DNA of 64,000 nucleotides from Acidovorax radicis N35 (GTDB lineage: Bacteria; Pseudomonadota; Gammaproteobacteria; Burkholderiales; Burkholderiaceae_C): positions 62,001-126,000 of the forward strand of contig NZ_AFBG01000003.1 of NCBI RefSeq assembly GCF_000204195.1, written 5' to 3'. Made by a program: the position numbers and the translations under genes. Under the pieces are notes generated by a model, which worked only from the letters and a program-made list of their open reading frames with translations, had not been told where the DNA came from and ran no database searches. Positions 32,168-50,968 of the stretch are shown here, in pieces (the stretch's first letter is position 1; every line of letters begins with the position of its first letter).

Positions 32168-34393
32168 TCAATGCAGTTGCCGCCGCATGAAAACTTCCAG
32201 TTCTGGCGCAGACAGCGGCATGCTGAAGTGGTAACCCTGCGCCTCGTCGCAGCCTTGCTCGCGCAGGTAGGCCAATTGGCCTTCGGTCTCCACGCCTTCG
32301 GCCGTGGTGCGCATGCCCAGCGCCTGGGCCATGCGGATGATGGCGCTCACGATGGCGCGGTCGTTGCCGTCATCGCCCAGGTCGCGCACGAACGACTGGT
32401 CGATCTTGAGCTTGAAAATCTGAAAGCGCTTGAGCTGGCTCAGCGATGAGTAGCCGGTCCCAAAGTCGTCCATCGACATGCGCACGCCGCGCGCGTGCAA
32501 TTGGTCCATGGTGGCCACCGCGGCATGCGGGTCGTCCACGGCCACGCCTTCGGTCAGTTCGAGTTCCAGGGAGTCGGGCGGCAGATCGAATTCGGCCAGC
32601 ATGCGGCTCACCAGCTCCGGCAGCTGGGGCTGGCGAAACTGGATGGCAGACAGGTTCACGGCCATTGTCAGTTTGGGAAAACCGCTGGTGCGCCAGGTTT
32701 TGAGCTGAGCCAGCGCGGTGCGCAGCACCCATTCCCCAATCTGCAGGATTTGCCCGCTGTCTTCGGCAATGGGAATGAACTCTGCCGGCGACACCCCACC
32801 GAGCTGCGGGTGCTGCCAGCGCAGCAGCGCTTCCACGCTGCGTACGGAGCCGTTGGTCAGGCTCATCTGCGGCTGGTAGTGCAGGTGGAACTGGTTGCGC
32901 TCCAGCGCACGGCGCAGGGCGTTTTCGAGCTGCAGCGCGCGCACCGACTGCGCCTGCATTTCGGGGGTGAAGAACTTGAAAGTGTTGCGGCCATCCAGCT
33001 TGGCGCGGTACATGGCCACATCGGCCGATTGGGTCAGCGTGTCGAAGTCCGCGCCATCTTGCGGGAACAGCGCGATGCCCATGGATGGCGCCATGGTCAG
33101 CTCGTGGTGGTCGATCTGGTAGTGCTGGCGCGATGCCTCCTGCAGCTTGCCGGCCACGCGGGCGGCGCCGTGCGCGTTGGCACCGGGCAGCAGCAAAATG
33201 AACTCGTCACCGCCCAGGCGCGACACCGTGTCCTTGTCGCGCACCACTGCACGAAGCCTCTTGGCGATCTCCACCAGCAGCGCATCGCCCACGCGGTGGC
33301 CCAGGGAGTCGTTCACATGCTTGAAATGGTCCAGGTCCAGGAAGATCAGGGCCAGCGGCGTGTTGCCTTCCTGGGCGACGCGGATGGCCTGCTGTGCCCG
33401 TTCGGCCAGCAGCGTGCGGTTGGGCAGGCCTGTCAGGGCGTCGTAGTGGGCCAGCCAGTAGATGCGCTCCTGATCGGCCTTGCGGTCGTTGATCTCACGG
33501 TGCAGGTTGTCCACGGTTTCGCGCAGTTCGCGGGTGCGGTCCTGCACTTGCCTTTCCAGGTCTTCGTGGGTGCTGGCAAGCAGGGCCTGCGCCTGCTTGC
33601 GCTCCGTGATGTCCATGGTGATCCAGATGGAGCCCTGGGACGGATCGGCAGGGTCGATGGACTTGCTGCGCACCTCGCAGATCACGGGGGTCCCGTCCTT
33701 GCGGCACAGCTCCAGCTCGCCTTCGTAGGAGTGGCCTGCGGCCAGCTGCGGATAGCACCGGCGGCCGACTTCTTCCCAGGCGGCATCGCTGGCGTACCAC
33801 TGGCGCGAGGGGCTGCCTGCCAGTTCTCCCGGCTGGTAGCCCAGCATCTGTTCAAAGTGGTGGTTGCAGCGGGTCAGATGCCTGTCACGCAGGAACGCGA
33901 TCCCCACCATCGCGCTGTCGAAGAGCAACTGCTTTTCACGCACTGCCGCACCCAGCGCCGCCTGGGCGCGCTTTTGCTCATCGATGTCGTCCAGGATCCA
34001 GATGGAGCCTTCTGTCGTGTCCTGTGGGTTGATGAGCCGCCCCGTCAGGCTGCCCCAGAACAAGCTGCCATCGCATCGGCGCAGTTGGCGCTCGACGCGG
34101 AATGCCTGGCCCTGGGCCAGCACGGGATAGGCGGTGCGGCCCAGATCGCGAAACGCCTCGCGCGAGGGGTAGAACGCCTCGGTGTTGAGTCCCACCAACC
34201 GCTCGGGGCTGGCATAGCCAAAAATCTCGGCGTACCGCTGGTTGCAGCGCACCACACTGCGCTGGCGCAGGAACACAATGCCCACGCCTGCGCTGTCGAG
34301 CAGGGTTTGTTGTTCGCGCAGCGCGCGTTGCAGGGGAGTGTCGGTGGCAACTCCAGGACGCTGCAATTCTGGAGTGCTGAACGGCGCAAACAT
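32168..34393 (-). CDS. PAS-PAS-GGDEF-EAL c-di-GMP enzyme
   Basis: A cytoplasmic signalling protein able in principle to both make and break cyclic di-GMP. From the ATG at 34393 it has 741 residues: two PAS domains (about 30-145 and 150-270), a GGDEF domain with intact GGDEF at 394-398 and an RxxD inhibition site (RDKD) five residues before it, and an EAL domain with EALLRW at 521-526, DDFGTGYSSL and KIDQSFVRDL. No membrane helix is seen. A TTG at 34441 would add 16 residues. It is a close paralogue of the next gene upstream. Confidence 0.93.
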   Translation of the reverse strand: MFAPFSTPELQRPGVATDTPLQRALREQQTLLDSAGVGIVFLRQRSVVRCNQRYAEIFGYASPERLVGLNTEAFYPSREAFRDLGRTAYPVLAQGQAFRVERQLRRCDGSLFWGSLTGRLINPQDTTEGSIWILDDIDEQKRAQAALGAAVREKQLLFDSAMVGIAFLRDRHLTRCNHHFEQMLGYQPGELAGSPSRQWYASDAAWEEVGRRCYPQLAAGHSYEGELELCRKDGTPVICEVRSKSIDPADPSQGSIWITMDITERKQAQALLASTHEDLERQVQDRTRELRETVDNLHREINDRKADQERIYWLAHYDALTGLPNRTLLAERAQQAIRVAQEGNTPLALIFLDLDHFKHVNDSLGHRVGDALLVEIAKRLRAVVRDKDTVSRLGGDEFILLLPGANAHGAARVAGKLQEASRQHYQIDHHELTMAPSMGIALFPQDGADFDTLTQSADVAMYRAKLDGRNTFKFFTPEMQAQSVRALQLENALRRALERNQFHLHYQPQMSLTNGSVRSVEALLRWQHPQLGGVSPAEFIPIAEDSGQILQIGEWVLRTALAQLKTWRTSGFPKLTMAVNLSAIQFRQPQLPELVSRMLAEFDLPPDSLELELTEGVAVDDPHAAVATMDQLHARGVRMSMDDFGTGYSSLSQLKRFQIFKLKIDQSFVRDLGDDGNDRAIVSAIIRMAQALGMRTTAEGVETEGQLAYLREQGCDEAQGYHFSMPLSAPELEVFMRRQLH

Positions 34394-34538
34394 GAGACCG
34401 GTACGGGCGTAGGGCCTGGCGGCCTTGGTAATTTGTACCAAAGTGTAGCAGTGCTCCCTTACAGCCGCCGGCGCCCCTCCCGCACCTTCCGCACCGTCGC
34501 AGCACCAAGTAAGAACGTGTTCACGATCTTAGCCAGCC

Positions 34539-37490
34539 TTAGCGTGCCTGCTGTCCGCGCAGGTAGGCCTCGAAGGCGTCGGCCGGCAGTGGGCGGCTAA
34601 AGTAAAAGCCCTGGGCTTCATCACAGCCCTGTGCGTGCAGAAACTCGAGCTGTCCGTCGGTTTCCACCCCTTCGGCCGTGGTCTGCATGCCCAGAGCCTG
34701 CGCCATGCGGATGATGGCGCTGACGATGGCGCGGTCGTTGGCATCCTCTTCAAGATCGCGTACGAACGATTGATCGATCTTGAGCTTGTAGATCTGAAAG
34801 CGCTTGAGATAGCTCAGCGACGAGTACCCGGTGCCAAAGTCATCCATCGACAGGCGCACGCCCCGGTCGTGCAACTGGTCCATCATCGCCAGTGCAGCGG
34901 CAGGGTCGTCCACGGCGGCACCTTCGGTCAGCTCCAGCTCCAGCCTGCGGGCAGGCAGGCCGGCCTGTTCCAGGCAGCGGGTCACCATCTCGGGCAGTTG
35001 AGGGTGCCTGAATTGCACGGCAGAAACGTTCACGGAGACGGCCCGCAGGGGCAGGTGCAGATCCAGCCAGCGCTTGATGTCGGTCACCGCCGTGTGGATG
35101 ACCCATTCGCCAATCGCCACGATCATGCCGCTGCTTTCGGCGACGGGGATGAACTCTGCCGGTGACACCAGGCCCAGCTCGGGGTGGCGCCAGCGCAGCA
35201 GGGCCTCCGCGCCTACCACCTGGCGCGTGGAGAGCGAGACCTGTGGCTGGTAGTGCAGCTCAAACTGATTGCGCTCCAGTGCACGGCGCAGTGCGTTTTC
35301 TATCAGCAAGGCGCGGGCCGTGCGCGCTTCAATATCGGCGGTAAAAAATCCGTACCGGTTGCGCCCGTTTTGTTTGGCGCGGTACATGGCGGCATCCGCC
35401 CGTTGGTACAGCGTGTCGAACGATTCGCCATCGGCCGGATACATCGCAATGCCGACCGACAAGGTGGTGGTGAGCTCGTAAGGATCGATCTGAAACGGCT
35501 GGGCCACGGCCGCGAGCAACTGCATGGCCATTTCGGCGGCAGCGCTTGCAGTGGTGGATGGGAGCAACAGAAGAAACTCGTCACCGCCCAGGCGCGAGAC
35601 CGTGTCCTGGGGTCTCAAGAGGGACTGAAGCCTTTGTGCCACCGCCACAAGCAGGATGTCGCCAATTCTGTGGCCCAGTGAGTCATTGACATTCTTGAAG
35701 TGGTCCAGGTCTAGAAACAGCATCGCCAGTGTGCCACCCCGTGCCTGCTCATCGGCAATGTGGCGATGGGCGCGTTCTGCCAGCAGCGCGCGGTTGGGCA
35801 AGTTCGTGAGCGGGTCGAAGTGCGCCAAGCGTTGAATGCGGTCCTGGGCCTCGCGCTGCTGGGTGATGTCACGGAACAGCGTGATGGAATGGGTGACCAC
35901 ACCATTGCCGTCTCGCACACTGCTGACCGACAGCCACTGGGGGTAAGTGGAAGCGTCTTTGCGGTGTCCCAGGGCTTCGCCTTCCCAGCTTCCGCCCTGC
36001 GGCAGCTGTGCATAGACGGTATCCGCATCGAAGTCGTGGCCGGGCCCCGCGACGGTGAGTAGACGCACTGACTGCCCTACCGCTTCGGCTTCTGCATACC
36101 CCGTGATCCGCGTGAACGCCCTGTTGATGCGCACGATGGTATGGGCAGCATCGGCGATCACGATGGCTTCACTGCTCTGGTCAAACACCTGCGCGGTGAG
36201 TTGCAACTGCTCCTGGGACCGCTTGCGCTCGGTGATGTCGCGCGACAGCACAATGAACCGGGGTTTTGCGTTGGGGGAAGTCGCCTTGCGCGCCGCAGAC
36301 AACTCAAACCAGGTGGCGCCCAGGCGAGGCAGGTCGAGCATGATCTGCCGTCCGGTGGACCAGCCCTGCGCCTGGGCTTCATTCAGCACGTCCATCACTG
36401 ACAAGGCCGCCAGCGCAGGCATCACATCGGCCACGTTGCGTCCCACCAGCGTTTCGGCGGGGGCCATGAGCAGCTCCGCGCGCGGGCTGTGCACGCTGCA
36501 GTAAAAACCATCCTGGTCGAGCTCGAAAAGCGGATCCGGTATGGCGTCGATGGTGGCGTGCAATTGCTGCTGGGTTGCCTGGATTTCCGAGGTGCGCTGC
36601 GCCACCTGGTAGGCCAGGCCGCGCTCATGCTCTTTCAGCTCGAACAGCAGCCGGGCCACGTAGGCCATCATCAAGGCAAACAGCAAGGCGATCGCGCATC
36701 GCATGGCCAGCACGCCCGGGTCTCCCCAACCCTTGATGGGGGTCAGGCTCAGCGTCCACTGTCCATTGGGCAAGGTCAGCGACCTGCCCACGGCATCGGG
36801 GCCCGGGGGCGGTGCAGACGCTGCAATCGTCTGCTCTTCTTCCGTATCGGGCCGGATGCGCCACAGCCGGTAGTGGTATCCCCGCTGGGTCAGTTGCGGC
36901 AGGCGCGCAGCGGCGAGCACCTCGGGCAGGCGGATGGTGACGTAGGTAAAGCCCCAGAAGGTGCGGTGACCCTGGGCATCCTCCAGATAGACCGGCTGGC
37001 GCCCCACCACCCCCAGACCGCCTTGCACCAGCTCCATGGGGCCAGCCAGGGTCAGCAGGCCTGACTCCCGTGCCCTGGCGGATTCGCGACCTTGACGCGG
37101 GTCATTGAGTTGATCGAAACCGATGGAGTTTTCGTTGCCCTGGCGCGGCACCACGTGCCTTACCACGCCGTTGGGGGACAGGCCCATGGCCGCAATGCCA
37201 GGGTAGAACGGCAGCATCTGGGTGCCGATCTCTTCAAACTGCGTCACCTGCCCTTTGCCCTGGCGCACCAAGGCGACCAGGGTGTTGTTGGCGGACAGGG
37301 CCAGTTCGATGGCGCGCTGCAAGGCCTGCACATGGTCGCCCGCCATGTCTGTCACCTGCGTGCGCTGCTGTGCCTGTTCCTGGCGCTCCAACGCCCACAC
37401 CAAAGCGCCTGCACACAGTGCCGCCAGAACAAACACGACCAGCGCGCCCATGGCAGGGCTTCGGGGGCGGGCGGGGAAGGAGGCGTGCAC
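34539..37490 (-). CDS. CHASE-PAS-GGDEF-EAL membrane c-di-GMP enzyme
   Basis: A membrane-bound sensor with diguanylate cyclase and phosphodiesterase domains. The 983-residue product has a membrane helix at about 14-33, a periplasmic CHASE-type sensor to about 255, a second helix at 260-283, two PAS domains (about 305-420 and 430-550), GGDEF near 634-638 with an RPQD inhibition site, and EALLRW near 762. The frame is open 36 codons further up; the GTG at 37490 was chosen because AGGA sits nine bases before it. It faces the phosphate-linked lipid operon divergently. Confidence 0.92.
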   Translation of the reverse strand: MHASFPARPRSPAMGALVVFVLAALCAGALVWALERQEQAQQRTQVTDMAGDHVQALQRAIELALSANNTLVALVRQGKGQVTQFEEIGTQMLPFYPGIAAMGLSPNGVVRHVVPRQGNENSIGFDQLNDPRQGRESARARESGLLTLAGPMELVQGGLGVVGRQPVYLEDAQGHRTFWGFTYVTIRLPEVLAAARLPQLTQRGYHYRLWRIRPDTEEEQTIAASAPPPGPDAVGRSLTLPNGQWTLSLTPIKGWGDPGVLAMRCAIALLFALMMAYVARLLFELKEHERGLAYQVAQRTSEIQATQQQLHATIDAIPDPLFELDQDGFYCSVHSPRAELLMAPAETLVGRNVADVMPALAALSVMDVLNEAQAQGWSTGRQIMLDLPRLGATWFELSAARKATSPNAKPRFIVLSRDITERKRSQEQLQLTAQVFDQSSEAIVIADAAHTIVRINRAFTRITGYAEAEAVGQSVRLLTVAGPGHDFDADTVYAQLPQGGSWEGEALGHRKDASTYPQWLSVSSVRDGNGVVTHSITLFRDITQQREAQDRIQRLAHFDPLTNLPNRALLAERAHRHIADEQARGGTLAMLFLDLDHFKNVNDSLGHRIGDILLVAVAQRLQSLLRPQDTVSRLGGDEFLLLLPSTTASAAAEMAMQLLAAVAQPFQIDPYELTTTLSVGIAMYPADGESFDTLYQRADAAMYRAKQNGRNRYGFFTADIEARTARALLIENALRRALERNQFELHYQPQVSLSTRQVVGAEALLRWRHPELGLVSPAEFIPVAESSGMIVAIGEWVIHTAVTDIKRWLDLHLPLRAVSVNVSAVQFRHPQLPEMVTRCLEQAGLPARRLELELTEGAAVDDPAAALAMMDQLHDRGVRLSMDDFGTGYSSLSYLKRFQIYKLKIDQSFVRDLEEDANDRAIVSAIIRMAQALGMQTTAEGVETDGQLEFLHAQGCDEAQGFYFSRPLPADAFEAYLRGQQAR

Positions 37491-37558
37491 GGTACGAGTT
37501 CCTGGACCAATTATGCAGGCCCAACGATTGCCTGCGTAGGTGCCTTCCCAGGGTCCGC

Positions 37559-37598
37559 ATGTCATGACATTGACATGCCATCGACATGGCTGCGTCAT
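37559..37598 (+). promoter_or_regulatory. Candidate tandem Pho boxes before the lipid-remodelling operon
   Basis: Four 7-mers at an exact 11-bp step resemble the Pho-box unit CTGTCAT: ATGTCAT (37559), TTGACAT (37570), TCGACAT (37581) and GCGTCAT (37592). PhoB binds such direct repeats. They lie about 100 bases before the olsB-like start. The first 12 bases (ATGTCATGACAT) are also a perfect palindrome, so another regulator is possible. Confidence 0.55.
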
Positions 37599-37694
37599 GT
37601 GCCAATTTCACACTCGCTCCCAGGGGAAAACGGTTCCCAGCCCTTGGTTGGGGCCTCCAGCCGAAACCGTCCTGACGCAAGGAGATGTTGCACC

Positions 37695-38531
37695 ATGAAT
37701 GAATTGCCCACCTTGACACCGCCCCTGCCAGCCGAAGTTGCTTCTCCGAGGGGACTTCGTGGTGCGGGTACTCTGTCTGGCGCAGCGCGTCTGGTGCCGG
37801 AACGTGGCGCCATTCAGGTGGCCTGGGCGCGCCATGAAGACGAAGTGCGCCAGGCGCAGCGGCTGCGGTTCGACGTGTTTGCAGCGGAAATGGGCGCTCG
37901 ATTGACGACCCCCATCCCGGGCCATGATGTGGACCTCTTCGACGACTACTGCGAACACCTGTTGGTGCGCGATGCCCAGAGCCAGCAAGTCATTGGGACT
38001 TACAGGGTGCTCACTCCGGCACAAGCCCGACGCGTTGGTGGTACCTACAGCGATACCGAGTTCGACCTCACGCGGCTGCGTTCGCTGCGTCCCCGCATGG
38101 TGGAACTGGGGCGCAGTTGCGTGCACCCCGATCATCGCCACGGTGGCGTGATCATGGCCTTGTGGAGCGCGTTGGCGGATTTCATGGTGCGCAACCAGTT
38201 GGACACCATGATCGGCTGCGCGAGCATTCCCATGCTCTACAACGGCGTTGTGAGCGGCGATGCTGCCGCCAGCATCTGGCAGCAGGTGCGCCAGACGCAC
38301 CTGGCCCCCATCGAATACCACGTGCTCCCCCGGTTGCCCTTGCCCGTGGAGCAGCTTAATGGCTCGATCACGGTAGAGCCCCCGGCGCTCATCAAAGGCT
38401 ACCTGCGGCTTGGGGCACGCGTGTTGGGCGCTCCGGCCTGGGACCCGGATTTCAACACCGCAGACCTGCCGATGCTGATGCGTCTGGCAGATCTTCATCC
38501 CCGCTATCGCAAGCATTTTCTGGGGGCCTGA
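37695..38531 (+). CDS. olsB: OlsB-like N-acyltransferase (GNAT superfamily)
   Basis: Likely makes the 3-hydroxyacyl amide of an amino acid such as ornithine, the first step to ornithine lipids. The 278-residue protein shows the family pattern: LRFDVFAAEMGA, DLFDDYCEHLLV, VIGTYRVLTP, EFDLTRL, MVELGRSCVHPDHR and DTMIGCASIPM. AAGGAG stands ten bases before the ATG at 37695. The second enzyme, OlsA, is not nearby, so the amino acid and final lipid are inferred. The stop overlaps the next start (TGATG). The symbol is by similarity. Confidence 0.75.
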   Translation: MNELPTLTPPLPAEVASPRGLRGAGTLSGAARLVPERGAIQVAWARHEDEVRQAQRLRFDVFAAEMGARLTTPIPGHDVDLFDDYCEHLLVRDAQSQQVIGTYRVLTPAQARRVGGTYSDTEFDLTRLRSLRPRMVELGRSCVHPDHRHGGVIMALWSALADFMVRNQLDTMIGCASIPMLYNGVVSGDAAASIWQQVRQTHLAPIEYHVLPRLPLPVEQLNGSITVEPPALIKGYLRLGARVLGAPAWDPDFNTADLPMLMRLADLHPRYRKHFLGA

Positions 38532-39400
38532 TGCGCACCGCGTTCGATGCCTTGGGTCCCTGGATGGAACCGTCCTTGGGCCCCGAGGACACAGCCGACG
38601 ACGCGCAGGCATCCGCCGCTGGTCATCGCCGGTACCGCGCGGTCTTTATTTCTGATCTGCATCTGGGTACTCCAGGTTGCCAGGCGGTCGCATTGCTGGA
38701 CTTTCTCAAGCACCATCCCAGCGATCACCTTTACTTGGTCGGCGACATCGTGGATGGTTGGCAACTGCGCCGCAAGTGGTTCTGGCCACAAGCCCACAAC
38801 GATGTGGTGCAAAAGCTCCTGCGCCGCGCGCGCAAAGGGTGTCGGGTGGTGTTTGTACCCGGCAACCATGACGAATTCGCCCGTGCGTTCGTAGGCCACT
38901 CTTTTGGTGGCATCGAGGTGCGGGCCGATGCGGTTCACACGACGGCCGATGGTCGCAGCCTCTGGGTCACGCACGGAGATCATTTTGATGGGGTCATTCA
39001 GTGTGCCAAGTGGCTGGCGTATCTGGGCGACAACCTGTATGAGTTCACCCTCAAACTCAACCGGCACCTCAACACCCTGCGTGCCCGCGTGGGGTTGCCC
39101 TACTGGTCCCTGTCGGCGTACCTGAAGGGCAAGGTCAAGAAAGCACTGAACTACGTCACTGATTTTGAAGTGGCCGTGGCAGCCGAAGCGCGCCGCAGGG
39201 GACATGATGGCGTGGTGTGTGGCCATATCCACCGTGCTGAGATGCGGGAGATCGGCGGGACCCTGTATTGCAATGACGGCGACTGGGTGGAAAGCCACAC
39301 CGCCCTGGTCGAGCACATGGACGGCCGACTGGAACTGCTGCAGTGGCCGGCTTCTCCGCTCGCAAATATCCCCCAGGCCGAGGCCGCTGTTGTGTTATGA
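38531..39400 (+). CDS. PlcP-like metallophosphoesterase (LpxH/UDP-diacylglucosamine hydrolase superfamily)
   Basis: A calcineurin-fold phosphoesterase of 289 residues with all metal motifs: DLHLG (42-46), GDIVDGW (71-77), GNHDE (111-115), HGDHFD (148-153) and GHIHRAEM. Annotation by family alone would suggest an LpxH relative, but true LpxH is shorter and the operon context matches PlcP, the phospholipase C that strips head groups from phospholipids under phosphate starvation in Sinorhizobium and marine bacteria. It lacks a signal peptide. Its stop overlaps the next start as ATGA. Confidence 0.8.
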
Positions 39401-40485
39401 AAATTGCCTTGTTGACCGATGCCTGGCTTCCCCAGGTGAATGGGGTGGTTACCACCCTGCTGGAACTGGTGCAGGCGCTTGAAACTGCCGGGCACGAGGT
39501 GCAAGTGCTGCACCCCGGTCAATTTGCAACCCGTCCCTGCCCTGGCTATCCCGGCATCGACCTGGCCGTGCGGCCGACAAAGCGCGTGGCAGAGGTACTG
39601 GACGCCATGCAGCCCGATGCCATCCACCTTGCCACAGAAGGGCCGCTGGGCTGGGCGGGGCGCCGCTACTGCCTGCGCAAGGGCCTGGCGTTCACGTCGG
39701 CTTTCCACACACGTTTTCCGGAAATACTGCATGCGGCGCTGCGTGTGCCGCTTGGTTGGGGGTACGCGCTGTTCCGGCATTTCCACCGTCCATCCTCGGG
39801 AGTGATGGTGCCCACGCAAGGCGTTCTGCAGATGCTGGAGCGTCGGGGTTTCCGCAATTTGCGCCCGTGGACCCATGGAGTCGACACGCGGGTTTTTCCG
39901 TTCCATGGCGCAACCACCCAGAGCCCGCTCATGGGCACTCTGGCGCACCCGGTGTCGCTGTATGTGGGGCGGATTTCGTACGAAAAGAACATCGAAGCTT
40001 TCCTCCGGCTCGACATGCCGGGCTCCAAGGTGGTTTGTGGTGTCGGGCCGCTGGAGGCGCGTCTCAAGGCGAAGTACCCGCAGGTTCGTTGGCTGGGCAT
40101 CCTGGACCGCGCAGCTTTGGCAGAGGTCTATGCGGCCGCTGATGTGTTTGTATTTCCAAGCCGGTCAGAAACGTTCGGTTTGGTCATGCTGGAGGCCATG
40201 GCCTGCGGGACGCCTGTGGCAGCGTATCCCGAGGATGGCCCCATGGAAGTGCTGGGAGCGCATTCTGGCCAGGCCCCTAGAGGGGGTGTGCTACAGAATG
40301 ATCTGCTCCTGGCAAGCCAGCAGGCCTTGGGGATTCCTCGGTCCGAAGCACGCGCGCGGGCACTCGATTTCACCTGGGCTCATGCCGCCCGGCTGTTTGA
40401 ACAGTACCTGGTCCCCGCCCGTGTGCAGGATGCATCTTGTGTGACTGTCACAAAACCTGTCACATCGTTGTCATCTGGGCGTTAA
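39397..40485 (+). CDS. Glycosyltransferase family 4, Agt-like
   Basis: A GT-B glycosyltransferase of 362 residues: N-terminal [20 protein letters not shown], then [15 protein letters not shown] and the donor site [20 protein letters not shown] (E-x7-E). In the PlcP-Agt pairs known from phosphate-starved marine bacteria, the transferase puts sugars on the diacylglycerol released by PlcP, forming glycolipids. The ATG at 39397 overlaps the preceding stop. The last 29 bases carry the Pho box of the next gene, ppk. Confidence 0.82.
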
Positions 40486-40490
40486 ATACT
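40445..40490 (+). promoter_or_regulatory. Pho box and -10 of ppk
   Basis: CTGTCACATCGTTGTCAT at 40457-40474 is a Pho box with exact 7-4-7 spacing. An additional CTGTCAC stands at 40445-40451. AATACT at 40485-40490, ten bases past the box, fits a PhoB-dependent -10. The site overlaps the end of the glycosyltransferase gene. Confidence 0.75.
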
Positions 40491-40524: not shown

Positions 40525-42693
40525 ATGTTGCCTTTGCCTTTCGATCATGCTGGCACACATGCCACCACCTCCCTGTTGCATGACAGTGGCACGAGTTGTA
40601 CGTTAGTGCAATCCACCAGCCACCCTCCTCAGATGTTTCTGGACAGAGATCACAGCATCCTGGCTTTCAATGAGCGGGTGTTTGACTGGGCCGTGCGGAC
40701 GGATGTCCCCTTGCTGGAGCGGCTGCGCTATCTGTGCATCGTGTCTTCCAATCTCGATGAGTTTTTTGAGGTGCGCGCTGCGCCACACATCACCGCTGCG
40801 CAGAAGGGCGAGACCAAGGGGCTTTATTCAACGGCGTCCTTCGAAGCCATGGCCGCCAAGGTGCACAGCCTTGTGGAGCGGCAGTACACGCTGTACAACG
40901 ATTCCTTGGTGCCGGCGTTTGCCGCACACGGGATTCGCATCGTGGGCTACAGCGAGCGTTCTCCCGCGCAAAAGCGGTGGGTCCACGATTATTTTTTGGA
41001 CGAAGTTCGGCCTTTGCTGATTCCGGTGGGCTTGGATCCGGCACATCCGTTTCCACAGGTAGCCAATAAATCGCTGAATTTCATTGTCCGGTTGAAAGGT
41101 CACGACGCCTTTGGCCGCGAGAACGAGATCGCCATCGTCAAGGTGCCCCGGGCCCTGCCAAGACTCATTCGCATGCCTGACCGCGTTGCTCCCGGGGAAG
41201 CGCTTTTCGTGAGCCTTTCCAGCATTGTCCGGGCGCATCTGGAGGATTTGTTCCCGGGGCGCGAGGTCACGGAGTTCTCGCAGTTCCGCGTCACGCGCCA
41301 TTCAGACCTGGCACTGGACGAGGAGGACGTGCGCAATCTGCGGACCGCACTTCGCCAGGGCTTGCAGCACCGGCACTACGGGCAAGCGGTGCGGCTGGAG
41401 GTGTCTTCTGGATGTTCGCAGTTTCTGTCGGATTTTCTGTTGGCGCAATTTGCCTTGCCGGCAGCTGCCCTGTTCCGGGTGCAGGGTCCCGTGAATCTGG
41501 TGCGACTGACACAACTCGTGGATCTGGTGGATGCCCCGGACCTCCTGTTTGCGCCCTGGAACTCTGCCTGGCCTCGGCAATTGCAGTCCGGCGTGTCCAT
41601 TCTGGAGCAACTGCGCAAGCACGATGTGCTGATCCATCAGCCGTTCGAAAGTTTTGATGGGTTACTCGCCTTTCTGCGCGAAGCCGTCAATGACCCGGAC
41701 GTGCTCGTCATCAAGCAGACGATCTACCGAACCGGGGCGGACTCCGAACTCATGGACCTGCTCACCGAGGCGGTGCGTCGCGGCAAGGAGGTCATGGCCG
41801 TGGTGGAACTCAAGGCCCGGTTTGATGAAGAGGCCAATATCAACTGGGCCGAGGCCCTGGAGTCCATTGGTGCACAGGTGGTCTACGGTGTGGTGGGGCT
41901 CAAGACACACGCCAAAATGCTGCTCGTCACGCGCAGGGAAGGGCGAAAACTGCGGCGCTATGGGCACCTTTCCACCGGCAATTACAACGTGCGTACTGCG
42001 CGGCTCTATACCGATCTGAGCTACCTCACGGCCGATGAGGAAACCACTGCTGACATGGATGGGGTGTTCAACCATCTGGCGAGCCAGAACCGTCCGCCCA
42101 AGCTGCGCAAGCTGATGCTGGCGCCGTTCCATCTGCACCGGCGCATGCTGGAAAAAATCGAACAAGTGGGGCTGGCGGCCAGTCGGGGAGAGGATGCGCG
42201 CATCGTCGCCAAGATGAATGCCCTGACGGACGAGGCCCTGATGCGTGCCCTGATTGCGGCCGGCCAGCGCGGGGCACGCATTGACCTCATCGTGCGCGGA
42301 GCCTGCATGTTGGCTGCCCAAGTCCCTGGGGTGACCGACAACATCCGTGTGCGCTCGGTCATTGGCCGGTTTCTGGAACACACGCGCGTTTTCTATTTCC
42401 GCAGCGGGAATGAGGAAGACCTGTATCTCTCCAGTGCCGACTGGATGAACCGCAACATGATGCGGCGGGTGGAGCTGGCCTGGCCCGTGACCGACCCTCG
42501 CCTGCGCCAGCAGATTGTCGATGAATGCCTGGTCGCCTATCTGCATGATGAACGGGATGCCTGGACCCTGAACGCAGATGGCTCCTACGGCAGGGCTCCT
42601 CGTCCCCAGGATGGTTTGGGCGCACAGAACGCTCTGATGGTCCGGTATGGTCCGGCCCCATCGGTGGCGCACGTGGATCAGGGGACGGCATGA
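40525..42693 (+). CDS. ppk1: Polyphosphate kinase 1
   Basis: PPK1 polymerises the terminal phosphate of ATP into polyphosphate. The 722-residue product from the ATG at 40525 has the family start FLDRDHSILAFNERVFDWA from about residue 38, IVSSNLDEFFEVR, the phospho-acceptor His in VYGVVGLKTHAKM and the LSTGNYNVRTARLYTDL region. The 36 residues before MFLDRDHS are not conserved, so translation may instead begin at 40633; neither start has a good ribosome site. The stop overlaps sixA (ATGA). Confidence 0.95.
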   Translation: MLPLPFDHAGTHATTSLLHDSGTSCTLVQSTSHPPQMFLDRDHSILAFNERVFDWAVRTDVPLLERLRYLCIVSSNLDEFFEVRAAPHITAAQKGETKGLYSTASFEAMAAKVHSLVERQYTLYNDSLVPAFAAHGIRIVGYSERSPAQKRWVHDYFLDEVRPLLIPVGLDPAHPFPQVANKSLNFIVRLKGHDAFGRENEIAIVKVPRALPRLIRMPDRVAPGEALFVSLSSIVRAHLEDLFPGREVTEFSQFRVTRHSDLALDEEDVRNLRTALRQGLQHRHYGQAVRLEVSSGCSQFLSDFLLAQFALPAAALFRVQGPVNLVRLTQLVDLVDAPDLLFAPWNSAWPRQLQSGVSILEQLRKHDVLIHQPFESFDGLLAFLREAVNDPDVLVIKQTIYRTGADSELMDLLTEAVRRGKEVMAVVELKARFDEEANINWAEALESIGAQVVYGVVGLKTHAKMLLVTRREGRKLRRYGHLSTGNYNVRTARLYTDLSYLTADEETTADMDGVFNHLASQNRPPKLRKLMLAPFHLHRRMLEKIEQVGLAASRGEDARIVAKMNALTDEALMRALIAAGQRGARIDLIVRGACMLAAQVPGVTDNIRVRSVIGRFLEHTRVFYFRSGNEEDLYLSSADWMNRNMMRRVELAWPVTDPRLRQQIVDECLVAYLHDERDAWTLNADGSYGRAPRPQDGLGAQNALMVRYGPAPSVAHVDQGTA

Positions 42694-43154
42694 TGGACCT
42701 CATTTTGTGGCGCCATGCGGAGGCGGAAGAGCCTGCAGAGGGGGGTGACGATCTGGCGAGAGCTTTGACGTCGCGTGGGGAGAAGCAGGCTGCACGCATG
42801 GCCGCCTGGCTGGACCGGCAATTGCCCGAGGGTTTGCGTGTGCTCGCCAGTCCGTCGCGGCGCACGGAGCAGACCGCAAGCGCTCTGGGGCGAAAATTCA
42901 AGATGCGCGCCGAGCTGTTACCTGGTGCGATTCCGCAGGATCTGCTGGATCTTGTGCAATGGCCACGCGCCAAGGGCACGGTGCTGGTGGTGGGCCATCA
43001 ACCCGTGCTGGGCCAGACCATTGCGCAGTTGATGGGGCTCCAGGCTTCGGAGTGCGCCGTGCGCAAGGGGGCTGTCTGGTGGTTGAGGCAGCGGCAACGG
43101 CTGGACCAGAGCCAGACGTTGCTGATCACGGTCCAATCTCCCGAGTTTCTTTGA
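42690..43154 (+). CDS. sixA: SixA-type phosphohistidine phosphatase
   Basis: A histidine-phosphatase-superfamily protein of 154 residues with the RH motif in LILWRHAEAEE and a second His in VLVVGHQP. SixA removes phosphate from histidines of signalling proteins; in this position next to ppk1 and phosphate genes its partner is open. The start overlaps the ppk1 stop (ATGATGG), so the two are translationally linked. Confidence 0.88.
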   Translation: MMDLILWRHAEAEEPAEGGDDLARALTSRGEKQAARMAAWLDRQLPEGLRVLASPSRRTEQTASALGRKFKMRAELLPGAIPQDLLDLVQWPRAKGTVLVVGHQPVLGQTIAQLMGLQASECAVRKGAVWWLRQRQRLDQSQTLLITVQSPEFL

Positions 43155-43198: not shown

Positions 43199-43732
43199 TT
43201 ACTTGCGCGTGGCTTTGGCGGTCGTCTTTGTGGCTGGCGCGGGTGTTGCCGGTGCTGCGTCTGCCTTCGGGCGTCCCGTCTTGATGGATGGCACGGCCTG
43301 CACCGCGCTGCGCAGGGCCGCGTCGGACATCGCTGCCAAGACCTTGAGACCCGCACGCAGCAGCTCGCTTTTCTTCACAGGCTGGGCGAGAGCGGCTGAG
43401 CGCTGCTTCAGGGTTTCTATGACTGCGTATTCGTCTTTGGGAATGGTGAAGCTGTCGCGCACCAGCTTGGGCTTCTTGGCCTTGACGTCCCGGGTGGCTG
43501 CCGGTGTGGGGGCCTTGGGCTGTTTGAGCGTCACCTGTTTGGCGCTGGGTGCCTTTTTCTTGGGAACCGCGGCGGGTTTTGCCGCCAATTTTTTCGGTGG
43601 CTTGACGGCAGCCGCTGTTTTGGCCGGGGTCTTGGTAGCCGCAGCAGTGGTCTTGACCGACTTTGCCGGAGTTGCTGGTGCGGGGTTCGGTGCGAGGGCT
43701 GCTGGCGTAGTGGTGGTGCTGGATGTGGTCAT
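43199..43732 (-). CDS. Lys/Ala/Pro-rich protein with ribbon-helix-helix-like core
   Basis: The 177-residue protein has long Ala/Lys/Pro/Thr-rich arms at both ends (about 1-88 and 150-177), like histone H1-type tails. Between them lies a compact segment, RDSFTIPKDEYAVIETLKQR then PVKKSELLRAGLKVLAAMSD, with the strand-helix-helix pattern of ribbon-helix-helix DNA-binding proteins. I infer a nucleoid- or DNA-binding role; the family is not one I can name. The arrangement of ATAAAC repeats upstream would suit self-regulation. Confidence 0.75.
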   Translation of the reverse strand: MTTSSTTTTPAALAPNPAPATPAKSVKTTAAATKTPAKTAAAVKPPKKLAAKPAAVPKKKAPSAKQVTLKQPKAPTPAATRDVKAKKPKLVRDSFTIPKDEYAVIETLKQRSAALAQPVKKSELLRAGLKVLAAMSDAALRSAVQAVPSIKTGRPKADAAPATPAPATKTTAKATRK

Positions 43733-43789: not shown

Positions 43790-45268
43790 TCACGGTAGGT
43801 CAACCACCAGTTCCCAAGGTGTCTTTAGCCATGCCTGAATTTCCTCGCGCAGCAGGTGTGCCGACTGTGGAAAGATCGCCGCCCAGCCGGCGCGGGCTCT
43901 CAGAATGAAACGCTGGCCTTCTGTCTGCAACGAAAGACCGGCCGTGTCCGGGTCGCGGCGGGCGTGGCACAGTGCCACGGCCAGGCGCATGCTGAGCAGC
44001 TGAAGCGCGAAGACGGAGTCTTGCAAGTCCGCTTCCAGTTTGCGCACCTTGCCGCGTTGCCCTTGAACCAGTATCCCGAGACGGTGAAGTTCGGGGACGG
44101 CAAATCCAGCGGCGTCGGTGTTGTCGAGGATGTAAGCGCCGTGGCGGTGGTAGTCGCTGTGGGAGATCAGGCAGCCAATCTCGTGCAGCCGGGCGGCCCA
44201 ATCGAGTTTTCGCGATGCGCGCTCGCTCCCGAAAGGCATGGCCTGATCAAACAGAGCACACGCAGTGCGTGCGACACGCTCCGCGTGCTCTATATCCACA
44301 CCAAACCGCTGCATCAGGCCATTTACGGTGGTGGTCCGCAGGTCGGTGCCAGGTTGTTCGCGGTCGAGCAGATCGTAGAGTGCACCTTGGCGCAAGGCAC
44401 CCTGGGCGACATGCATCTGCTCGATGTCCAGCAGGTCAAACACGGCGCGCAACACACTGATGCCTCCGCCGATGACGGCGCGCCGTTCTTCCTTGAGGCC
44501 TTCCAGGCGTATGCGGTCCGCTGACTGGGCGCGCAGCAGTCGCTCGTGCAGCCAATGGAGGCCTTCGCGGGTGATGAGGCCTTGTGGCCCACCCGCAGCC
44601 GTCAGCACGTCGCCAACGGCTCCGGCGGTGCCGGAGGATCCATAGGCTATCTCCCAGGCGTCGGGCTGGAAGGTCTCCAGCGCTTCGTCCAACACGGCCT
44701 TGGCTGCGATCTCGGCTGCCAGGAAGGCCTGCGCGGTGAACTCGCCGTTGGCAAAGTAGCGCTGCGACCAGGCAACACTGCCCACCCGGTACGAAGCCAC
44801 GGCATGGGGTGTGAACTGCTGGCCCAAAATCAATTCGGTGGAACGCCCACCGATGTCCACCACCAAGCGGCGCTCGTCGGATTGCGGAAGCAGGCGGGCT
44901 ACGCCCTGGTAAATCAGCCGTGCTTCCTCGGGGCCAGAGACGACGTCGATGGGATAGCCCAGCACTTCGCTGCCGCGCAACAGAAACTCTTCCCGGTTGC
45001 GTGCTTCGCGCAGCGTCTGTGTGGCCACGGCGCGAACCTGGGCGCGTGGAAACCCGGCCAGCCGCTCGCCAAACCGCGCCAGGCAGGCCCAGCCACGCTC
45101 CATGGCGTCGCGTGTCAAATTGCGATCTTCGTCAAGGCCATTGCCCTGGCGCACGGTCTCCTTGAGGTATTCCACCCGCTGGATATGACCGAACTCATAG
45201 CGCCCGATTTCGAGGCGAAAACTGTTGGAGCCGAGGTCGACTGCGGCGAGGCGTGTGCCGTTCTGCAT
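43790..45268 (-). CDS. ppx: Exopolyphosphatase (Ppx/GppA)
   Basis: Ppx removes phosphate from polyphosphate ends, opposing PPK1. The 492-residue protein from the ATG at 45268 has the sugar-kinase/Hsp70 fold: phosphate loop AAVDLGSNSFRLEIG, VVDIGGRSTELILG, and GSSGTAGAVGDVL, followed by an HD-like C-terminal part (AARLHEIGCLISHSDYHRH). The frame is open 49 codons further up without family similarity. It lies opposite to ppk1-sixA and is divergent from pstS with a shared 278-base control region. Confidence 0.95.
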   Translation of the reverse strand: MQNGTRLAAVDLGSNSFRLEIGRYEFGHIQRVEYLKETVRQGNGLDEDRNLTRDAMERGWACLARFGERLAGFPRAQVRAVATQTLREARNREEFLLRGSEVLGYPIDVVSGPEEARLIYQGVARLLPQSDERRLVVDIGGRSTELILGQQFTPHAVASYRVGSVAWSQRYFANGEFTAQAFLAAEIAAKAVLDEALETFQPDAWEIAYGSSGTAGAVGDVLTAAGGPQGLITREGLHWLHERLLRAQSADRIRLEGLKEERRAVIGGGISVLRAVFDLLDIEQMHVAQGALRQGALYDLLDREQPGTDLRTTTVNGLMQRFGVDIEHAERVARTACALFDQAMPFGSERASRKLDWAARLHEIGCLISHSDYHRHGAYILDNTDAAGFAVPELHRLGILVQGQRGKVRKLEADLQDSVFALQLLSMRLAVALCHARRDPDTAGLSLQTEGQRFILRARAGWAAIFPQSAHLLREEIQAWLKTPWELVVDLP

Positions 45269-45392
45269 GTTTTTCTGGTTGGAGCTTCGTTCGGCATGGT
45301 ACCGCGACCATCTGGTGTGCCCCCCGCGACGCACGTTGCCACAAGGGCGGTGGGAGGGCGGGCTGTGATCTTTGCCAGTGTGTGCCGCTTGC

Positions 45393-45410
45393 ATGACACA
45401 TTCATGACGA
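45393..45410 (-). promoter_or_regulatory. Candidate Pho box facing ppx
   Basis: On the minus strand TCGTCATGAATGTGTCAT has 7-4-7 spacing with 5 and 6 matches of 7 to CTGTCAT. It points toward ppx, about 125 bases before its start. No clear -10 box follows at the expected place. Confidence 0.45.
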
Positions 45411-45471
45411 TGCAAGCCGCATCGGGTAAAGGCGGGTGGTCGTGTGGCAGTTGGCTACGACGAGGATTTGT

Positions 45472-45546: not shown

Positions 45547-46569
45547 ATGAAACGCACATTTCTCAAAACCGTTGCTGTAGCACTCGCCACCATGGCGGTA
45601 GGCAGTGCCTTTGCTGCGGACATCACCGGCGCGGGCGCAACCTTTCCGTTTCCCATGTACGCCAAATGGGCCGAAGCCTACAAGAAGGAAACCGGCACAG
45701 GGCTGAACTACCAGTCCATCGGTTCGTCCGGCGGTATCCGCCAGATTCGCGCCAAGACCGTGGCCTTTGGTGCCTCTGATGCACCGGTTTCTGGTGCCGA
45801 TCTGGAGAAGGACGGCATGGTGCAGTTCCCCGCCATCATTGGGGGCACGGTGCCCGTGGTCAACCTGGAAGGCTTCAAGCCCGGCGAACTGCGCGTCACA
45901 GGCCCGGTGCTGGCAGAAATCTTTCTGGGCAAGATCGCCAAGTGGAATGATGCCAAGCTTGCTGCACTGAACCCTGGCAAGACCTTGCCAGACCAGAACA
46001 TCACCGTGGTCCACCGCGCAGATGGTTCGGGCACCACGTTCAACTGGACCGACTACCTGTCTGCCGTCAGCAAGGAATGGGCAGATTCCGTGGGCAAGGG
46101 CGCTGCCGTGAAATGGCCAGCCGCTTCGTCCGTGGGTGGCAAGGGCAATGAAGGCGTGGCCGCCAATGTGACCCGGGTGAAGGGCGCAGTGGGCTACGTG
46201 GAATACGCCTACGTCAAGAAGAACAACATGAACTTCCTGCAGCTGCAGAATGCGGACGGCAAGTATGTGAGCCCTGACGACAAGACCTTCGCCGCCGCAG
46301 CAGCCAGCGCAGACTGGTTCAGCGTGCCGGGCATGGGCATCTCGATGGTCAATGCCAAGGGTGCCGAAAGCTGGCCCGTCAGCACGGCCTCTTTCATCCT
46401 GATGTACAAGGACCCTGCGGACAAAGCCCAATCGGCTGAAGTGCTGAAGTTCTTTGACTGGGCGTTCAAGAACGGCAAGGGTATGGCTGCAGATCTGGAC
46501 TATGTCCCGCTGCCTGACAGCCTGACCGCCGAGATCCGCTCCAAAGTCTGGTCGCAGATCAAGAAATAA
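45547..46569 (+). CDS. pstS: Phosphate-binding protein PstS
   Basis: The periplasmic high-affinity phosphate receptor of the Pst transporter. The 340-residue protein has a signal peptide (cleavage likely after AFA, residue 23), ITGAGATFPFPMYAKW at the mature start, the phosphate-contacting IGSSGGIRQI and RADGSGTTFNWTDYL. First gene of pstSCAB-phoU-phoB; a hairpin after the stop should keep its message more abundant than the rest. Confidence 0.97.
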   Translation: MKRTFLKTVAVALATMAVGSAFAADITGAGATFPFPMYAKWAEAYKKETGTGLNYQSIGSSGGIRQIRAKTVAFGASDAPVSGADLEKDGMVQFPAIIGGTVPVVNLEGFKPGELRVTGPVLAEIFLGKIAKWNDAKLAALNPGKTLPDQNITVVHRADGSGTTFNWTDYLSAVSKEWADSVGKGAAVKWPAASSVGGKGNEGVAANVTRVKGAVGYVEYAYVKKNNMNFLQLQNADGKYVSPDDKTFAAAAASADWFSVPGMGISMVNAKGAESWPVSTASFILMYKDPADKAQSAEVLKFFDWAFKNGKGMAADLDYVPLPDSLTAEIRSKVWSQIKK

Positions 46570-46591
46570 GCCAGTCTGCCCCAGAATACCC

Positions 46592-46620
46592 CCCATTGGC
46601 CGGCTGGTCTGGCCGATGGG
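46592..46620 (+). other. Hairpin between pstS and pstC
   Basis: CCCATTGGCC and GGCCGATGGG pair over 10 bp with one T-G wobble and a 9-base loop, 22 bases after the pstS stop. No T run follows, so it looks like an mRNA-stabilising or partial-termination structure as often seen after binding-protein genes. Confidence 0.55.
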
Positions 46621-46662
46621 TGCTGGTTTGTGGGGATCTCCAGAAGCCAGATGGGAGTCAAT

Positions 46663-47670
46663 ATGAGCGTGGGAACCACCATGAGTTCGCAATCCGGGTC
46701 CGTCAAGAAGACAGACGCCCCCACAGAGTCGATGGTATCGATTGCCAAGCGGCAGCATCTTCAGGACATCTTTTTCCATCGTCTCACCCAAAGTCTTTCG
46801 CTGCTGGTGCTGGTAGCGCTTCTGGGCATCATCGTCTCGCTGTTTGTCTACGCGTGGCCGACGTTTCACAAATTCGGTGCCCAGTTCATCTGGCGCGTGG
46901 AATGGGACATCATCAACGAAGAGTTCGGCGCCGCGATTGCCATCGTCGGCACCTTGGCCAGTGCAGGCATTGCGCTGCTGATCGCAGTGCCACTCGCTTT
47001 CGGCATCGCCCTTTTCCTCACGGAAACCTGCCCCGTGTGGCTGCGGCGCCCGCTGGGCACGGCAGTGGAGCTGCTGGCGGCGGTGCCTTCGATCATCTAC
47101 GGCATGTTTGGCCTCTTTGTGTTTGCCCCGCTGTTCGCGGACTACTTCCAGATGCCGGTGCAAAAGCTGTTGGGCTCCATGCCACTGGTCGGGTTTCTGT
47201 TTGGGGGCAGCACAAACGGGTTCGGCATCCTGGCTGCTGGCATTGTGCTGGCGTTCATGGTGCTGCCTTTTGTGGCTGCCGTGATGCGCGACGTGTTCGA
47301 GATTGTTCCGCCCATCCTGCGCGAGTCCGCCTACGGCCTGGGCTGCACGACCTGGGAGGTGGTGCGCCGCGTCGTGTTGCCCTACACGCAAAAGGGGGTG
47401 ATCGGCGGGGTGATGCTGGGCCTGGGCCGTGCCCTGGGCGAGACCATGGCGGTGACCTTTGTGATCGGCAATGCCAACCGCATGCCCACGTCGCTGTTCT
47501 CCCCGGGGACCTCGATTGCCTCCACGCTCGCCAATGAGTTCGGCGAAGCTGCCGACTTTCACCTTTCCACGTTGTTCGCGCTGGGTTTCCTGCTGTTCGT
47601 GATTACCTTCGTTGTGCTTTCGGCGGCCAAGATCATGATGCTGCGCGCCGAAAAGGCCAAGGGCCTTTGA
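46663..47670 (+). CDS. pstC: Phosphate ABC transporter permease PstC
   Basis: One of the two membrane subunits of the phosphate importer. The 335-residue protein has about six membrane helices and the EAA loop ([20 protein letters not shown]) that docks PstB. Upstream in-frame starts exist (46630, 46651), but the ATG at 46663 has GGGAG five bases before it and was chosen. The cytoplasmic N-terminus of about 40 residues is Ser/Thr-rich. Confidence 0.96.
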
Positions 47671-47712
47671 CTCCGCCCGTCCTGACCATGAACCTCTTTT
47701 GAGACAAGCTCC

Positions 47713-48567
47713 ATGGAATTCAACCAACAACTCTACAAAAAGCGCCAGCGCTCCAACGCCATCGGTCTGACCCTGTCCCTGGGTGCGATGGTGCTGGGCC
47801 TGTTCGTGCTGCTCTGGATCCTGAGCGTTCTGCTCTCCAACGGTTTTGCCGCGCTGGACTGGAACATGTTCACCCAGTCGACGCCAGCCCCGGGATCGGA
47901 AGGCGGGGGTCTGGCCAACGCCATCGTCGGCAGTCTCATGATGGTGGGTTTTACCGTCCTGGTATCCACACCGATTGGTGTTCTGGCCGGCGTGTACCTG
48001 GCGGAATATGGCGACCAGAGCAAAACGGCCGAGCTCACCCGCTTTGTGACCGACATCATGTTGTCTGCGCCCTCCATCGTGCTGGGCCTGTTCGTCTATG
48101 CCATTGCCGTGGCGACGGTCGGTAACTTCTCGGGTTGGGCCGGTAGCCTGGCGCTGTCGCTCATTGCCGTGCCAGTGGTGGTTCGCACCACGGAGAACAT
48201 GCTGCGCCTGGTGCCCGGCAGCCTGCGTGAAGCGGCCTTCGCTTTGGGGGCGCCGCGTTGGAAGGTGTCCACCATGGTCACCCTGCGCGCTGCGCGCAGC
48301 GGTGTGATGACGGGGCTGCTGCTGGCCGTCGCCCGCATCAGCGGCGAGACGGCGCCTTTGTTGTTCACCGCGCTCAACAACCAGTTCTTCAGTACCAACA
48401 TGAATGCGCCCATGGCCAACCTGCCGGTGGTGATCTTCCAGTTTGCCTTGAGCCCCTATGAAAACTGGGTGCGCCTGGCCTGGGGCGGTGCCCTGCTCAT
48501 CACGCTGTCGGTGCTCATTCTCAACGTCGTGGCACGGGTGTTCCTGCGCGAGAAAAACCGCGTCTGA
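47713..48567 (+). CDS. pstA: Phosphate ABC transporter permease PstA
   Basis: The second membrane subunit of the Pst importer. The 284-residue protein has six likely membrane helices, the EAA loop LREAAFALGAPRWKVSTMV and the conserved VRTTENMLRLVP stretch. It follows pstC by 42 bases. Confidence 0.97.
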   Translation: MEFNQQLYKKRQRSNAIGLTLSLGAMVLGLFVLLWILSVLLSNGFAALDWNMFTQSTPAPGSEGGGLANAIVGSLMMVGFTVLVSTPIGVLAGVYLAEYGDQSKTAELTRFVTDIMLSAPSIVLGLFVYAIAVATVGNFSGWAGSLALSLIAVPVVVRTTENMLRLVPGSLREAAFALGAPRWKVSTMVTLRAARSGVMTGLLLAVARISGETAPLLFTALNNQFFSTNMNAPMANLPVVIFQFALSPYENWVRLAWGGALLITLSVLILNVVARVFLREKNRV

Positions 48568-48627
48568 TCCTGCCCGCCCTCGCATCGCACACACAGACAA
48601 GACCGCCTCCATTTTCAGGATTTGACA

Positions 48628-49410
48628 ATGAACGCCACTGCTACCGTCACCCCCAGCAAAAATGCGCTGGAACTGCGCAACCTGAGCTTCTTCTACGGCA
48701 AGTTCCAGGGACTGCGCAACGTCAGCCTCAACATTGCCGAGCACAAGGTGACCGCTTTCATCGGCCCCTCGGGCTGTGGCAAGTCCACCCTGCTGCGCAC
48801 CCTCAACCGCATGTACAGCCTGTACCCGGGTCAGCGTGCCGAGGGCACGATCAACTTCTACGGCCAGGACATCCTGGACGCCAAGCAAGACATCAACCTG
48901 CTGCGTGCGCGCATCGGCATGGTGTTCCAGAAGCCCACGCCGTTTCCCATGTCCATCTACGACAACATTGCCTTCGGCGTGAAGCTCTATGAAACGCTGA
49001 GCAAAAGCGAGATGGATGACCGCGTGGAATGGGCGCTGTCCAAGGCCGCCCTGTGGACCGAAGTCAAGGACAAGCTCCACCAGAGCGGTCTGTCGCTGTC
49101 CGGCGGCCAGCAGCAGCGCCTGTGCATTGCACGCAGTGTGGCCGTGAAGCCTTCGGTGCTGCTGCTCGACGAACCTACCTCGGCGCTGGACCCGCTGTCC
49201 ACCGCCAAGATTGAAGAGCTGATCGACGAGCTCAAACACGACTACACGATTGCCATCGTGACGCACAACATGCAGCAGGCAGCCCGTTGCAGCGACTACA
49301 CGGCCTACATGTACCTGGGCGAGATGATCGAGTTCGGCGCCACCGAACAGATCTTCTTCAAGCCCGAGCGCAAGGAAACCGAAGACTACATTACCGGCCG
49401 TTTCGGCTAA
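48628..49410 (+). CDS. pstB: Phosphate ABC transporter ATP-binding protein PstB
   Basis: The ATPase of the Pst importer. The 260-residue protein has Walker [11 protein letters not shown]-loop [14 protein letters not shown], signature LSGGQQQRL, Walker [14 protein letters not shown] and the switch His in [12 protein letters not shown] is seven bases before the ATG at 48628; a TTG two codons earlier is unlikely. phoU follows after 11 bases. Confidence 0.98.
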
Positions 49411-49421
49411 GGAGACAGCAG

Positions 49422-50123: not shown

Positions 50124-50144
50124 CGAAAGGGCTTTGGCACATTT

Positions 50145-50852: not shown

Positions 50853-50918
50853 GCGCCTGTTCACTTCCCCTGCAATAGGGAGAAGAGGTGCTGAGGGCGC
50901 AAGCCTGATGTTGTCGAT

Positions 50919-50946
50919 GGGGCGCACAGGATGCGCCCCTGCTTTT
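50919..50946 (+). terminator. Hairpin between phoB and phoR
   Basis: GGGGCGCA and TGCGCCCC form a perfect 8-bp stem with a 5-base loop, followed by TGCTTTTC, 22 bases before the phoR start. It resembles a leaky terminator that would lower PhoR relative to PhoB. Confidence 0.55.
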
Positions 50947-50968
50947 CTGAGAAGGCTTTGCTGACCGC

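Follow-up and report, generated by a model that had tools for sequence, protein, structure and literature searches.

An olsB-plcP-agt gene unit behind conserved Pho-box-like sites in Acidovorax radicis N35: a probable phosphate-controlled membrane-remodelling operon

Operons in which plcP and agt lie behind Pho boxes, the enzymes that they encode and the glycolipids that result are already established (PMC8528852, PMC9239053, PMC4796936; all papers are cited here for the portions of their text drawn on). In Pseudomonas aeruginosa, plcP and agt1 (PA3219-PA3218) are adjacent behind a Pho box, with monoglycosyldiacylglycerol (MGDG) and glucuronic acid diacylglycerol (GADG) reportedly formed under phosphate stress (PMC8528852), and ornithine lipid is reported to derive from an olsBA operon (PMC9804370). 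Here we describe a locus in a 64,000 nucleotide stretch of DNA from Acidovorax radicis N35 (the window) in which, in contrast, a gene for an OlsB-type N-acyltransferase heads a plcP-agt pair, with an olsA candidate located elsewhere in the genome and the polyphosphate kinase gene ppk following behind.

The locus resembles the P. aeruginosa system in having a PlcP/glycosyltransferase pair behind a Pho box, a comparison made with the copy of strain PaLo11, not that of PAO1 (55% and 49% identity). Marine plcP neighbourhoods fall into six types, of which type 2 places plcP beside agt with predicted Pho boxes, as is observed here; the partners described are betaine-lipid and glycosyltransferase genes and, the supplementary table aside, no olsB is named in the portions of that text drawn on, which also describe a SAR11 gene expressed in E. 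coli in a search for MGDG and GADG (PMC4796936). In Methylosinus trichosporium, a plcP-agt operon is required for GADG and ornithine lipid is also present at low phosphate, with olsA and olsB listed under differing locus tags (PMC9239053). PlcP, OlsA and OlsB of Pseudomonas putida BIRD-1 increase at low phosphate, a response lost in a phoBR mutant; unlike in the window, where olsB adjoins plcP, the olsA and olsB tags are numerically far from that of plcP and, in contrast to the suggestion made below for ppk, Ppk is counted among the proteins outside PhoBR control (PMC5082522). Pho boxes are also predicted upstream of olsB in Burkholderia sensu lato, where the gene context is described as usually conserved (data not shown in that source); the portions of the paper drawn on do not connect olsB with plcP, agt or ppk, the words polyphosphate and glycosyltransferase being absent from them (PMC7814305). 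An olsB-plcP-agt unit was found neither in the portions of these papers drawn on nor among the listed results of literature searches covering open-access papers.

The three joined genes and their products

All three genes lie on the plus strand and overlap stop to start, through TGATG between olsB and plcP (38529-38533) and ATGA between plcP and agt (39397-39400). Gene order, strand and overlaps are thus as the original prediction, made from the DNA letters alone, had described them (Table 1).

The second gene product belongs to the Metallophos and Metallophos_2 families, while LpxH models reach only 44 bits against a cut-off of 134 and about 37.5-37.7 bits against one of 190. The metal motifs sought (SDLH, GD, GNHD, HGD and GHIH) are all present, again as predicted, and among 95 PlcP rows they are matched in 87, 95, 95, 95 and 93, respectively. 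GNHD is shared by the window protein and all 95 PlcP rows, whereas 24 of 25 LpxH rows contain GNRD and one contains GNHD. A tree of the 95 PlcP-like and 25 LpxH rows splits the two groups with 100/100 support, the Sinorhizobium meliloti and P. aeruginosa anchors lying on the PlcP side; the split is present in all 200 bootstrap trees, although the bootstrap had not entirely converged and the LpxH group includes several long branches. These anchors, to which the window protein is 53% and 55% identical, were identified by their neighbours, acyl-homoserine lactone synthase and LuxR-type regulator genes in S. meliloti and glycosyltransferase and CyaB genes in P. aeruginosa. The true LpxH is encoded by a separate gene of the same genome (Acidovorax-like, 5.5 Mb in 30 contigs), which scores 202.5 bits with TIGR01854 against the cut-off of 190; this model was used since a route through PF12850 returned two other phosphoesterases (L001 and L002) with no LpxH-model match. 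LpxH identity of the window phosphoesterase was therefore rejected, on the sub-cut-off scores, the separate genomic LpxH, the tree split and GNHD, and the phylogenetic placement which the original prediction had put forward as a check groups the protein with PlcP. Its warning that family names alone would conceal the system also proved apt, as plasmid records call relatives of these proteins UDP-2,3-diacylglucosamine diphosphatase and GNAT family.

The third gene product contains GT4 domains and an E-X7-E motif starting at residue 258, and in an alignment of 335 columns shares 49% identity with Agt1 of the P. aeruginosa anchor. A second agt match was not detected in the genome at E 1e-5. The genome does contain a UDP-sugar dehydrogenase-family gene (406 bits), which makes a supply of UDP-glucuronate plausible.

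A match to PF13444 (124 bits) is observed for the first gene product, and two OlsB models top its NCBIfam matches with 158 and 151 bits, followed by OlsF with 45. The product shares 34% identity across 249 columns (E 2.5e-35) with S. meliloti OlsB, taken from a record labelled pSymB that carries rpoN and mutS. On the same two models S. meliloti OlsB scores 242 bits, failing the cut-off of 350, and 512 bits, passing that of 320, and three other Burkholderiales homologues (147-182 bits) fail both, so that the cut-offs look clade-bound. A PF01553 search of the genome detected five PlsC-type proteins, of which the closest to S. meliloti OlsA (37% over 135 columns) is the OlsA candidate (L007, G000:C16:102042-102380), encoded on contig C16 outside the window. 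The original prediction had both lipid-substitution routes apparently fused in one operon: the joining of olsB, plcP and agt stands, but the product of OlsB by itself is no more than the lyso form and the OlsA candidate lies on C16, so the ornithine-lipid route is not wholly contained in the operon.

Pho boxes before olsB and ppk

Four TGTCA-like half-sites, one every 11 bases and corresponding to two tandem Pho boxes, lie upstream of olsB. This array matches 16 of 20 letters and is the sole place in the window with 15 or more, compared with an expectation, from 20 Markov resamplings, of 0.15 sites with at least 16; it scores equally on both strands and the score therefore does not tell direction. 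A weaker 14-letter Pho consensus gives ten sites with at least 11 matches in the window, several inside unrelated genes, and thus proves little alone, hence the use of the four-half-site score. The half-site cores GTCA, GACA, GACA and GTCA are invariant in nine aligned Acidovorax promoters which are otherwise poorly aligned. The putative -10 element CACACT is located 10 bases past the last half-site (CGTCAT), and ACACT is likewise invariant in the nine rows, one of which reads GACACT.

Relatives of the first gene were named for the best 80 of 586 confirmed, a sample which consequently leans to close kin. In 48 of the 71 further relatives, i.e. those not used to find the site, the best site of the locus for TGTCA repeated four times falls in the 330 bases before olsB, against about 1.2 expected (1/(controls+1) summed across the 71 loci, there being no published null for such rank tests). 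With a matrix derived from eight Acidovorax sites, the site before olsB likewise came first in 48 of the 71. One of 72 loci (L149) had been dropped for short upstream DNA, and L101, which failed the strict pattern, was left out of the matrix. In two relatives (L145 and L162) a phoX gene (591 and 555 bits) with the orientation of olsB lies directly upstream, ending some 70 bases short of it, so that the operon may start further upstream in these loci. The candidate Pho boxes that the original prediction placed before the operon thus correspond to an array which is conserved in Acidovorax and top-ranked in most further relatives, and phosphate control is supported by these boxes, by the recurring gene order and by phoX upstream in two relatives.

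ppk is preceded by a Pho box of its own. Three perfect TGTCA half-sites with spacings of 12 and 11 lie in the last codons of agt, the stop codon of which (40483-40485) is located just past them, and ppk starts 39 bases beyond the end of agt. The site is complete (15 of 15 letters) in the window and in each of the seven Acidovorax relatives aligned, and AATACT stands 10 bases beyond its last half-site, just as CACACT does before olsB. It is top-ranked in 28 of 64 relatives, 16 of the 80 loci lacking a usable ppk start; no expected figure accompanies these ranks. With this conserved box of its own, ppk appears to be a separate Pho gene in this locus, which weakens the case for it as a plain operon member. 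The original claim that ppk is joined behind the operon thus holds for position, but given the separate conserved box joint transcription is only putative, with read-through from agt into ppk being possible.

Distribution of the gene order and setting of the locus

Among the 80 relatives, the nearest of which by olsB is Acidovorax sp. sif1233 (92% identity), olsB-plcP-agt is observed in 43, olsB-plcP-ppk without agt in six and olsB-plcP with another gene in three, two loci being cut by contig ends (L106 and L180). The gene next after the trio is ppk in 40 of the 43, with two contig ends and one locus in which it is not ppk (L174). In the six loci which lack an intervening agt (L112, L117, L131, L158, L163 and L176), PlcP may partner OlsB with no sugar transferase encoded alongside. 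Carriers include the Comamonadaceae Limnohabitans, Rhodoferax, Polaromonas and Acidovorax. The full arrangement is scattered over the olsB tree, requiring 13 parsimony changes of which at least six are forced by starred branches. A whole-genome search of 19 named relatives with other arrangements detected PlcP in 12, five of these in genomes where PlcP adjoins olsB, and an Agt relative at E 1e-15 in six, one with 50% and five with 35-40% identity.

Order-wide, a PlcP match is present in 149 of 300 genomes (152 matches, E 1e-20) and an OlsB-like match in 215 (E 1e-25). Eighty order loci were compared, one each from 80 genomes and picked mostly down the score list from the 152 matches. In 11 of them, from families f1, f8, f18, f26, f32 and f43, olsB shares the strand of plcP and is less than 2 kb away, in the orders olsB-plcP-agt (five), olsB-plcP (two), plcP-agt-olsB (two) and plcP-olsB (two). 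In three more (f13) the distance is 4.6-4.8 kb, in L088 olsB lies 1.2 kb away on the other strand, and in 65 of the 80 no olsB match was found in the stretch. Beyond this set, at least five genomes (G076, G108, G155, G225 and G252) likewise have olsB and plcP co-oriented and less than 2 kb apart. The differing orders of olsB, plcP and agt argue for a working link between them. Two of the eight other genomes of the window's family in the order sample carry the trio.

olsB relatives also occur in 28 plasmid records, all below 60% identity (53% for a Variovorax replicon), and in two Acinetobacter phage records (24%). A 263 kb plasmid of Mitsuaria sp. 7 (L098) carries plcP-ppk-ppx, neither olsB nor agt being matched within the 10.8 kb compared. 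Apparently chromosomal genes are present in plasmid-labelled records of S. meliloti (L097, L213 and L214, CP090106.1; rpoN, mutS and trpS) and P. aeruginosa (L099, CP075839.1; cyaB, together with plcP-agt), and the plasmid labels of both may be wrong.

The trio lies inside a pho locus, as ppk, sixA-like, ppx-family, pstS, phoB and phoR genes adjoin it (Table 1). An open reading frame (ORF) of 177 amino acids (aa), rich in alanine and lysine, is located between sixA and ppx (43199-43732, minus strand) and gave no NCBIfam match. Two tandem GGDEF-EAL genes (32168-34441 and 34539-37598, minus strand) diverge from olsB, the second starting beside or over the Pho array, and since the array scores equally on both strands this gene may be phosphate-responsive too. 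In L101-L108, L110, L112, L117 and L119, GGDEF-EAL matches likewise precede olsB on the opposite strand.

Table 1. Features of the olsB-plcP-agt locus, in window positions unless a locus is named
Feature	Position	Strand	Remarks
Four half-site array (two tandem Pho boxes)	37560-37597	+	upstream of olsB
CACACT, putative -10 element	37609-37614	+	past the array
olsB-like gene	37695-38531	+	278 aa, GNAT N-acyltransferase
plcP-like gene	38531-39400	+	289 aa, metallophosphoesterase
agt-like gene	39397-40485	+	362 aa, GT4 glycosyltransferase
Pho box of ppk	40446-40473	+	three half-sites
ppk, polyphosphate kinase 1	40525-42693	+	TIGR03705, 866 bits (cut-off 466)
sixA-like phosphatase gene	42690-43154	+	overlaps end of ppk; TIGR00249, 69.4 bits (below cut-off 74.5)
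ppx/gppA family gene	43790-45415	-	three models matched, each below its cut-off
pho locus	45547-52315	+	PstS, PhoB and PhoR above NCBIfam cut-offs
pstS	45547-46569	+	above NCBIfam cut-off
pstCAB and phoU	between pstS and phoB		assigned by position alone
phoB	50145-50852	+	above NCBIfam cut-off
phoR	50969-52315	+	above NCBIfam cut-off
phoX	L145:3944-5932	as olsB	Curvibacter and Polaromonas assemblies (L145, L162)
phoX	L162:3978-5927	as olsB	see L145

A proposed mechanism, its alternatives and its meaning

We consider it probable, at about 0.85, that the trio is a PhoB-activated membrane-remodelling operon for phosphate shortage. At low phosphate, phosphorylated PhoB would bind the array and activate olsB-plcP-agt, presumably as a single transcript. 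PlcP would then strip phospholipids of their phosphate head group and Agt would add glucose or glucuronic acid to the diacylglycerol that remains, while OlsB would couple a 3-hydroxy fatty acid with ornithine and OlsA from elsewhere, putatively the C16 candidate, would finish the ornithine lipid. ppk would be activated via its own Pho box just downstream. A bolder version, which is doubtful although not implausible, has OlsB and PlcP as the true functional pair and Agt as an optional third, with one PhoB-driven transcript setting the ratio of phospholipid breakdown to replacement by amino lipid and glycolipid, and the ppk promoter in the 3' end of agt tying polyphosphate synthesis to the same PhoB level. 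If true, relatives lacking agt between plcP and ppk would recycle their diacylglycerol and rely on the amino lipid alone to fill the membrane.

Several observations weigh against a PhoB-activated remodelling operon of this type. The window OlsB scores far below the NCBIfam equivalog cut-offs (158 bits against 350 and 151 against 320), and the product, with ornithine as its putative substrate, is filed as OlsB-type only. The C16 candidate has OlsA models as its best matches (126 and 118 bits), below the cut-off of 300, and is not located beside olsB; olsB and olsA are said to be adjacent as a rule (PMC11631085). Among the loci of the 80 relatives, olsB is joined to ppk with no plcP-agt in 15 and stands alone in 11, and among the eight family genomes three contain PlcP without olsB or agt nearby and three have no PlcP match. 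For 23 of the 71 relatives, the site before olsB fails to rank first. Fifteen of these have one to six equally good control stretches and eight, all with the full trio, have at least 22 (L127, L144, L145, L148, L162, L164, L166 and L167). An upstream phoX as the reason for weak Pho sites holds for L145 and L162 only: PhoX in L167 is on the other strand, the ORF taken upstream of olsB in L166 has no Pfam match, and nothing was recognised upstream in L127 and L144 in the ORF lists, which were used there without a Pfam scan.

Uncertainty about the amino acid leads to an alternative in which the lipid routes are real and OlsB uses glutamine, glycine or another amino acid, the product not being ornithine lipid. 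PF13444 includes several amino-lipid N-acyltransferases (PMC11631085), and the low identity to S. meliloti OlsB and unmet curated cut-offs would fit; however, the OlsB models lead widely over GlsB (21.5 bits), and there are reports of ornithine lipids from Burkholderia sensu lato, where olsB has predicted Pho boxes upstream (PMC7814305). A glutamine-lipid model was not among the NCBIfam matches of the window OlsB, NCBIfam not having been checked for having one. We regard this alternative as unlikely.

Still less probable is that the three genes are neighbours with separate promoters, their overlaps reflecting compaction in the pho locus. The Pho box of ppk lies inside agt, indicating that promoters inside genes may occur here, and plcP-agt is variably present between olsB and ppk, as the forced changes of the full arrangement illustrate. 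Against this, the stop-start overlaps leave no gap between genes for promoters, the olsB-plcP spacing of the window, measured by alignment ends, recurs in 20 of 45 loci with all three genes matched, and the array is without a second of its quality in the window. The proposal that the phosphoesterase is a second LpxH-type enzyme, in a cluster for synthesis of lipid A or an envelope sugar, draws on LpxH being its nearest named NCBIfam family, on the sole PDB sequence match at E 0.01 being an LpxH (E 0.004) and on the use of that name in public records. It is very improbable, as the LpxH scores are far below cut-off with the true LpxH elsewhere, the tree and the GNHD/GNRD signature place the protein with PlcP, and the Pho boxes and pho locus setting speak against it.

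The PlcP work considered here concerns marine bacteria, rhizobia, pseudomonads and methanotrophs, whereas the carriers of the present unit include Comamonadaceae. Close relatives that naturally have or lack plcP-agt between olsB and ppk (Tibeticola L153 versus L165) make the two replacement routes comparable, and the compact operon provides a clean genetic handle. LpxH and GNAT labels can hide a phosphate-saving pathway. Acidovorax-type bacteria may turn on two membrane phosphate-saving routes together behind one phosphate-starvation switch, a coupling that may be of benefit to the cell.

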